Below are positions 36,028 through 37,020 of a stretch of DNA of 64,000 nt, piece by piece. The notes under the pieces are model-generated. The model did no database searches, was not told where the DNA came from, and saw nothing but the letters and a program-made list of their open reading frames with translations. A program made the position numbers and the translations under genes. The stretch covers positions 1-64,000 of the forward strand of contig MHAZ01000020.1 in NCBI GenBank assembly GCA_001803165.1, read 5' to 3'. Each line of letters opens with the position of its first letter. Position 1 is the first letter of the stretch. Source of the stretch: Stygiobacter sp. RIFOXYC2_FULL_38_25. GTDB taxonomy: Bacteria > Bacteroidota > Ignavibacteria > Ignavibacteriales > Melioribacteraceae.

Positions 36028-37020
36028 TCATTTCAACAGTAGCATTTTCTTAGTTTCAGAATAACCGTTAGTTTGTATTCTATAGAAATAAATTCCGCTT
36101 TGTAGAGACGCCATATATGGCGTCTTTACATTAAATGCAACTTCATAATTTCCCGGCTGTTTGAACTCATCTACAAGTGTTGCTACTTCTCTTCCAAGTA
36201 CATCGTAAAATTTTAACGTTACGTGCTGTAAAGACGATCCGCCATTGGCGGAATGCCTCGTCTCTACCGGTATAGAGTAGCTAATTGTAGTTTCCGGATT
36301 AAATGGATTAGGGTAGTTCTGACTTAATGAAAATTTGGTTGGAATTACTTTGCTTACATCATTATCAATTGCTGATGCAGAATTATTTTTTATACAGCGA
36401 ATACAATATCCAAACTCTTTATCTCCGCCGCCAAATGCAATATTCCCAAGGTTATTATATAGCTGCATAATGCTTGCCTCAAACGAACTAAAAGTTTCGG
36501 AGCTCCAGAATCTTACAAAAGAATTAAGAAACGAAAAGTTACCATCATTTCCACGGTAACCGGAAAGTAAAGCGGAGAATCCGCTGGTGTTGGTACCAGC
36601 ACCAGCTCCTGTACCACTGCCAAAAACTTTTAATGAATTCCCATTGTTTTGGACAAAGTCTGCAAGTACTTGAAATTCTTTTAAGGTGGGAATGTGCCAA
36701 CCAGGCGGACAAATACCTTGCGCGCCCGGTGTGCTTTTATATTGCATGGCTTCATCCCACTGGTAATATCCTCCGTATGATTTATTATTTATCGAATCAT
36801 TATTATAGAAATACTTTTCAATAGCGTTGTTGTTGCTCGGATTTTCTTTGCCAAATATCATAGTCCCGACTTCAAGATTTTCTTTTAGCCAGCATTGAGT
36901 TCCTATTTGATCCGTATTATAAACTTTACCGGAATAATTAACTGTGGGTGTATCGGGACAAGGATTTTGCGAATAATATATTTGGCTGAATAAGAGTAAA
37001 ATCAAAAATAACTTTTTCAT
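36028..37020 (-). CDS. FISUMP-domain protein with type IX secretion sorting domain
   Basis: 330 residues from the ATG at 37020 (GAGGG upstream). Signal peptide MKKLFLILLLFSQIYYSQ. Residues about 25-215 are a FISUMP domain: TDQIGTQCWLKENLEVGT, YYQWDEAMQY, GICPPGWHIPTLKEF, FWSSETFSS, GYCIRCIK. Residues about 230-330 are the type A sorting domain with FSLSQNYPNPFNPETTISYS, FYDVLGREVATLVD and a closing YSETKKMLLLK. The protein is exported by type IX secretion to the cell surface. Two loops of the sorting domain are lengthened by palindromic DNA repeats inserted in frame (36101-36130 and 36227-36268). Confidence 0.88.
   Translation of the reverse strand: MKKLFLILLLFSQIYYSQNPCPDTPTVNYSGKVYNTDQIGTQCWLKENLEVGTMIFGKENPSNNNAIEKYFYNNDSINNKSYGGYYQWDEAMQYKSTPGAQGICPPGWHIPTLKEFQVLADFVQNNGNSLKVFGSGTGAGAGTNTSGFSALLSGYRGNDGNFSFLNSFVRFWSSETFSSFEASIMQLYNNLGNIAFGGGDKEFGYCIRCIKNNSASAIDNDVSKVIPTKFSLSQNYPNPFNPETTISYSIPVETRHSANGGSSLQHVTLKFYDVLGREVATLVDEFKQPGNYEVAFNVKTPYMASLQSGIYFYRIQTNGYSETKKMLLLK
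36101..36130. repeat. Palindromic repeat inside the sorting domain, copy 1
   Basis: A 30-bp near-perfect palindrome (14 of 15 pairs): TGTAGAGACGCCATA facing TATGGCGTCTTTACA. It is read in frame on the minus strand as VKTPYMASLQ, placed in a loop before the SGIYFYR strand. Other sorting domains of this family usually have a shorter loop here. Confidence 0.75.
36227..36268. repeat. Palindromic repeat inside the sorting domain, copy 2
   Basis: Outer stem GTAAAGACGA / TCGTCTCTAC, almost the same as copy 1, enclosing an inner palindrome TCCGCCA-TTGGCGGA. Read in frame as VETRHSANGGSSLQH between the SYSIP and VTLKFYDVLG strands. The inner part also resembles the TCCGCC...GGCGG block in the repeats at 48.5 and 49.1 kb. 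Confidence 0.75.

Follow-up and report, generated by a model that had tools for sequence, protein, structure and literature searches.

Palindromic repeats that are read in frame within genes have been described in several settings. Passages of Quentin et al. (2018; PMC6006769) deal with TnpAREP/RAYT subclass 2.4, its double-foot REPs and the in-frame REPs inside tnpAREP. Passages of Di Nocera et al. (2013; PMC3733652) describe intragenic GTAG/CGTC REPs, suggest that loops tolerate them, and note REPs in pseudouridine synthase genes. Rickettsia palindromic elements (RPE), according to the same passages (PMC3733652), are also palindromes lying in frame in genes. In the top-ranked open-licence literature (without supplements) on GTAGAGACG, RAYT/REPIN, RPE, T9SS and Ignavibacterium/Melioribacter repeat topics, no report of REPs in sorting domains was found. 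The terms 'T9SS' and 'type IX' do not occur in the passages of PMC6006769, and those of PMC5317091, PMC3534657 and PMC8049555 hold nothing on REPs in sorting domains; a different REP-like 18-mer in Caldithrix is mentioned in part of PMC5317091.

We analyzed two palindromes of one family, here called F1, located in a T9SS sorting domain (CTD) in a window, which is the whole stretch of 64,000 nucleotides studied. F1 resembles the subclass 2.4 double-foot REPs, as the passages of PMC6006769 present them, in the GT[AG]G / C[TC]AC ends of many of its copies, palindromic form, RAYT linkage and occurrence in many phyla, and also in lying in frame in RAYT genes between the HUH and Tyr motifs. Unlike in that account, F1 is found in sorting domains, at fixed junctions, with apparent renewal apart from the host. 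With the REPs of PMC3733652 it shares the in-frame position in coding DNA, the GTAG tags and the RAYT association, but those REPs, as portrayed there, are scattered over unrelated proteins, many of them in DNA repair, whereas F1 lies mostly in one domain family. Like the REPINs in the passages of Bertels and Rainey (2011; PMC3116915), F1 forms a population of short hairpins in the genome with a RAYT as likely mover; unlike these REP doublets, it is a single 28-nt palindrome. The sequence-only reading had compared the palindromes with the Rickettsia elements. The likeness holds as far as both are palindromes inserted in frame in genes, but a double-foot REP with its RAYT is the nearer relative. 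RPE-4 and RPE-6 are filed in PMC3733652 under CGTC repeats without RAYT association, a description that sets them apart from F1. On published descriptions the double-foot REP is the better fit in RAYT link and end motifs, and the RPE label was dropped. In-frame REPs are already known, and those inside RAYT genes were described by Quentin et al.

The sorting domain and its two palindromes

The locus contains the following features:
36028-37020, minus strand: host gene, FISUMP domain protein with a C-terminal T9SS type A sorting domain (translation, 330 aa from ATG)
36040-36315, minus strand: T9SS type A sorting domain (CTD), TIGR04183 30.8 bits in the whole-genome profile search
36102-36129, minus strand: 28-nt F1 copy in loop 2 with the core CCATATATGG, translated as VKTPYMASL(Q)
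36228-36267, minus strand: composite 40-nt F1 copy in loop 1, translated as VETRHSANGGSSLQ(H)
36238-36252, no strand given: nested hairpin TCCGCC-ATT-GGCGGA close to the tip of the loop-1 F1 copy, read from the sequence

In a profile scan of 36028-36996, the host protein scored 113.8 bits with TIGR02145 and 29 bits with TIGR04183 (cut-off 23). The AlphaFold model of the sorting domain has a mean pLDDT of 82.5, and the six best Foldseek rows include the CTDs of PorU, RgpB and mirolase, mixed with other Ig-like domains, at weak E-values (best 1.1e-3, no row at or below 0.001). Assignment to the CTDs is based on a TIGR04183 score above cut-off and on CTD structures among the best Foldseek rows, with the weak E-values just given.

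The inverted-repeat search found a repeat at 36101-36130 with 15-nt arms that are 93% complementary and no spacer. It missed 36228-36267 because the stem there is interrupted, and this stretch has the same GTARAGACG/CGTCTYTAC ends as the loop-2 palindrome. The motif GTARAGACG occurs four times in the window, always in these two palindromes, and at least four times in none of 100 shuffles. In the loop-1 composite, the TCCGCC-ATT-GGCGGA hairpin is set near the tip of a AGGCATGCCT-type palindrome; the same nested form is present in the own genome (G000) at C3:263 and in several CTDs of the relative G042. The in-frame minus-strand readings are VKTPYMASLQ in loop 2 and VETRHSANGGSSLQH in loop 1. 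In the AlphaFold model the loop-1 insert corresponds to residues 22-36, with a strandless stretch at 21-34, and the loop-2 insert to residues 68-77, with a strandless stretch at 67-78. The sequence-only reading had claimed two palindromes with a shared stem in one CTD, read in frame and placed in loops between strands; positions and ends are as claimed, the minus-strand translation bears out the frame, and the strand-free stretches of the model agree with the placement.

F1 as a dispersed family and its RAYT link

The 4.4 Mb genome contains 46 exact matches to the pattern GTARAGACGN{4,34}CGTCTYTAC and none to the reversed control pattern. TIGR04183 has 150 matches, which total 35,472 bases or 0.8% of the genome, and 28 of the 46 copies lie inside them. 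The 27 CTD copies listed share a single reading frame, and the 28th has identical surroundings. Among the 18 non-CTD copies, the one in L016 is read in frame within a RAYT, another ends an ORF of 219 aa, and 16 lie outside ORFs of at least 100 aa, so that 16 of 46 show the dispersal outside genes that goes with double-foot REPs. CTD, intergenic and RAYT copies have F1 versions in common. That the loop residues are ordinary protein sequence, palindromic by chance, has a negligible probability and is ruled out by the dispersed copies: there are 46 against none for the reversed pattern, 18 of them outside CTDs, and a palindrome-free orthologue (below) lacks the residues.

A target motif for insertion was considered and rejected, the flanks of the 18 non-CTD copies having no common motif by eye. 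The copy that ends the 219-aa ORF (L034, G000 C21:174567-174594) makes up its last codons; this ORF resembles a pseudouridine synthase. Nested hairpins within the F1 core were also seen in G049, G019, G042 and G015, with nested sequences differing among genomes. In two genomes F1 also lies in frame at similar positions within a different domain (…NNYGFxVER-[F1]-W..IGF…), in L074 (G049), positions 1501-1528, and in L216, positions 511-538; this is perhaps a second recurrent loop.

Eight RAYT ORFs contain F1 in frame, from G000, G002, G005 and five collection records, three of which are named Falkowbacteria, Nostoc and Dolichospermum. In all eight a copy lies between the HUH and the C-terminal Tyr motif, with motif positions assigned by eye. 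By motif alone, further F1-bearing RAYTs were found in G015, in G033 (three) and in G042 (one). Among the matches listed for the collection, RAYT ORFs contain 7 of 147 F1 copies, and 17 copies have a RAYT motif at a distance of 1.5 kb or less. F1 is read in two frames in RAYTs and in one in CTDs. The motifs are NHVH, WQ and YVEQNP in L016, and NHIH, WQ and YIEQNP in L339 and L153, the subclass 2.4 expectation being NH[IFV]H, WQ and YIxNNP. Another RAYT of the own genome (L071:1150-1716, C17) has a different palindrome, TGGGATGGGTCTGAGACCCATCCTA, between its HUH and Tyr motifs, perhaps its own REP family.

We consider it probable that F1 is a double-foot-type REP, very probably served by a RAYT (an HUH transposase like TnpAREP subclass 2.4), which would have entered the loops of T9SS CTDs and would be renewed there from a pool. 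For this we counted the in-frame copies in RAYT ORFs, the G002 RAYT with an F1 close to the CTD version of that genome, the concentration of 28 of the 46 copies in 0.8% of the genome, the empty and refilled orthologues, the low divergence inside the element relative to its flanks, and the presence of loop-2 copies in many passenger clusters. Several findings count against it. Seven F1-bearing RAYT ORFs scored 52.6-63.4 bits with NF047646, below its cut-off of 80, and many CTD copies have GTAA or TTAC in place of one canonical foot. In two of three gene pairs with different versions the CTD flanks are no closer than those of paralogues (below), and six relatives have F1 but none of it in CTDs. 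Among 23 chosen CTD versions, 15 start with GTAG, 8 end with CTAC, 4 do both and 19 have at least one foot; many F1 copies of relatives have both canonical ends.

Divergence of elements, flanks and orthologues

Differences at third codon positions inside the element were set against those in 28 other 9-codon windows of the same domains, taking the window with the least divergence and leaving out 'GGG-core' copies, in which CTD and non-CTD copies are mixed. Some copies are duplicates and so not independent, and the differences are therefore given without binomial values. For the CCAT core in loop 2 (n=12), the difference was 0.019 inside the element versus at least 0.406 in the other windows, which differ by about 0.50 on average. 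The value was 0.113 versus 0.467 for the TTGC version (n=11), 0.000 versus 0.333 for the CGCC version (n=4), 0.000 versus 0.148 for loop 1 of G042 (n=12), and 0.000 versus 0.345 for G002 (n=8). Of 14 matches in G002 at up to 2 mismatches, 10 are GTAGAGACTTGCCGCGGCAAGTCTTTAC or close to it, a version peculiar to this genome; at 3 mismatches the reversed control matches as well. Eight CTD copies in G002 are identical over 28 nt at the same junction, with flanks that differ by 0.40 and 0.39 at third positions, and the copy in the G002 RAYT is one base off this version. The 29 loop-2 copies are spread over 22 passenger clusters. Near-identical elements beside diverged codons suggest that the elements were renewed or homogenized apart from their hosts; we infer the route of renewal and spread from sequence comparison, no movement having been seen.

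These values bear on a rather unlikely explanation in which a small number of CTDs, perhaps a single one, carried F1 along as they were copied between genes, and the element itself was passive. Such spreading agrees with the fixed junctions, with F1 or the repeat F5 (below) occupying loop 2 in 42 of 59 PNPFNPET-type CTDs versus 5 of 82 others, with two 95% identical passengers having different CTDs (L084), and with the slight likeness of some orthologous CTDs. Element and flanks should then diverge together, yet third positions differ far less inside the element than in the other windows, and non-CTD copies have the same F1 versions.

An old insertion held unchanged because the palindrome itself is functional in these genes, as DNA or RNA hairpin, would also leave a conserved element. 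The arms are conserved, and over the 23 versions 95.7% of cells still pair, and 47 cells have changes on both sides, as high as in 0 of 500 shuffles; these versions are our own pick, many of them found via a palindromic pattern. Two of the five pairing measures, pairs with two-sided change and pair types, lie within the shuffles (102/500 and 100/500). Whole versions differ between species and the same F1 sequence is kept outside CTDs, and we regard selection on the hairpin as highly unlikely.

Orthologues in the same genus show loops in different states. For the peptidase L269, the loops are native in the orthologue of G001, with DASSL at loop 2; that of G003 has another insert, that of G004 F1 in loop 1, and that of G002 another F1 version in loop 2. 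For L299, the G002 orthologue has the same junction and nearly the same element (26/28 nt), and those in G001 and G003 have other inserts. In loop 2, the element and two bases replace five codons of the empty orthologue (L271 versus L269); the element was not simply added, because five native codons stand in its place there. An orthologue without the insert, as the sequence-only reading had proposed to look for, thus exists in L271, and it lacks the insert residues. The opposite case, named there as pointing to ordinary protein, in which the loop residues are kept in the absence of a palindrome, did not turn up on visual inspection of 56 orthologous CTDs (60 loci, 4 without CTD).

Replacement also bears on site-specific insertion, in which a transposase would recognize CTD-coding DNA and insert anew at the same nucleotide in many genes. 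The exact junctions common to diverged CTDs and the near-identity of the elements, which appear young, are as this explanation predicts. It is nevertheless distinctly unlikely, given the motif-free flanks of the 18 non-CTD copies (by eye), the exchange of about five native codons in loop 2, and the genomes that have F1 and none in CTDs.

Three G000/G002 gene pairs have different versions. In two of them the left CTD flanks agree at 49/72 and 50/72 nt, no closer than paralogues within one genome (48-58/72 nt), which may reflect a swap of the whole CTD. The third (left flank 55/72, right flank 33/42, element 20/28) is the best candidate for a change in place. The orthologue case for replacement in place is weakened by this paralogue-level likeness of CTD flanks.

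In the probable reading given above, the loops would tolerate inserts because they are set apart from the conserved strands, in an export signal that is removed once it has served. Between genes, F1-bearing CTDs would pass by duplication, conversion or swapping, in line with the loop-2 counts for PNPFNPET-type CTDs and the two 95% identical passengers. Resident elements would be renewed or replaced from a genome-wide pool, perhaps by the RAYT acting on the conserved ends, which is the least certain step, and renewal from the pool could leave each species with its own F1 version. In Porphyromonas the export signal is cut off by PorU, according to passages of PMC4804311. PorU homologues are present in G000, G002 and G042 (E at or below 1e-297), and by analogy the CTD is probably removed after export in this host as well. 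The proposal of the sequence-only reading that the inserts diversify secreted proteins is not supported, as the insert lies in the export signal that PorU removes in Porphyromonas (PMC4804311, in the part cited) and a PorU homologue is present here.

In-frame REPs have so far been known as scattered oddities; here most exact F1 copies sit in one domain family at fixed codon junctions, next to other repeat families, and element and host evolve at different paces. As each genome offers dozens of parallel sites, one can read how REPs spread, are replaced and decay, which bears on the movement of REPs by RAYTs, and CTDs offer a record of how probably mobile hairpin elements live inside coding DNA. 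In many annotated sorting domains, loop residues are inserted repeat DNA and not signal. A bolder proposal, which we hold to be doubtful, is that CTD loops are standing docking sites, where resident REPs are exchanged in place for the current version of the species, and that the shared palindromes act as handles by which unrelated secreted proteins exchange their sorting domains. If so, it would create a two-way link between a transposase family and secretome evolution.

Relatives and other repeats in the same loops

REP-like palindromes have indeed accumulated in T9SS sorting-domain loops, and this accumulation is lineage-specific. F1 is present in 23 of 58 genomes, the own genome included, and its copies were examined in 13 of the 22 relatives, three of them in part. 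The share in CTDs is 28/31 in G042, 4/6 in G004, 3/3 in G006, 2/2 examined in G017 (3 in all) and 1/1 examined in G047 (4 in all), and these 38 CTD copies have one common reading frame throughout. None were in CTDs in G005 (16 copies), G015 (9), G018 (10), G019 (13), G033 (5) and G049 (9), 0/62 when pooled, and the single copies examined from G041 (2 in all) and G050 are outside CTDs as well. A CTD preference as a property of F1 was rejected on these six relatives; colonization of CTDs is history and not a rule of the element. The idea that such elements persist by keeping frame and targeting surface loops stands for the frame and the loops. 'Targeting' is too strong, with six relatives at 0/62 and the same few junctions recurring in the genomes that were colonized.

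In the collection scan, loop-2 junction and F1 occur together in at least 8 loci among at least 118 matches listed; as the pattern was modeled on this junction, 8 among 118 is no rate. Two of the eight (L240 and L248) look identical to G006 copies. Of the four named loci, two lie on separate contigs of a MAG titled Melioribacter, one in an Ignavibacteriaceae MAG and one in a Parachlamydiaceae MAG. In the last (L170), the F1-bearing T9SS sorting domain stands on a contig assigned to Chlamydiae that is likely mis-binned. The host of the window is probably an ignavibacterium. In genomes of two families, CTDs of G004 (L273, L422, L423) and G042 have the same loop-1 F1 version and junction, VETSYMTSLR then IY.ILG, by either transfer or shared ancestry.

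Repeat families F1-F6 were defined by regular expressions of our own making on 141 of the 150 CTD matches, after dropping 8 without PNPFN and 1 that was not retrieved. Hairpins with a stem of at least 8 pairs number 59 in the 141 CTDs; codon-shuffled CTDs gave 15.0 (sd 4.5), and 140 segments taken upstream in the same genes gave 16. Loop 1 also holds the hairpin families F2 (LNxxKGxT) and F3 (DANFAS), loop 2 also F5 (HLERSRE), and loop 3 F6 (DPSLRSGHG). F5 is quasi-palindromic, below the hairpin threshold save for one inverted copy. For F6 no hairpin above the stem threshold was found among the 141 CTDs, and its search pattern had no matches. At least two of the other loop families, F2 and F3, are thus hairpins, a statement that leaves F6 and the 'NSQFS' loops aside.

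At up to 3 mismatches F5 has 36 matches in the genome, 15 of them in CTDs, one of these inverted. F2 has 9, 8 of them in CTDs, and is hardly dispersed in this genome. In the DNA subset searched by pattern, F2, F3 and F5 were not found outside CTDs; the whole-genome search did find F5 outside. Third-position difference is 0.098 in F2 versus 0.52 and 0.58 in its flanks (n=8), and 0.179 in F5 versus 0.38 and 0.50 (n=9), a less clear contrast than for F2. The inverted F5 (L138, G000 C21:642816-643085) sits at the usual loop-2 site and reads HLSTPLEMT for HLERSRE, the other 14 CTD copies having one orientation. In the window, positions 115-140 match F5 with 3 mismatches, outside all sorting-domain matches. 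At L084, the three adjacent sorting domains (G000 C2:102410, C2:104533 and C2:106624) resemble mosaics of each other.
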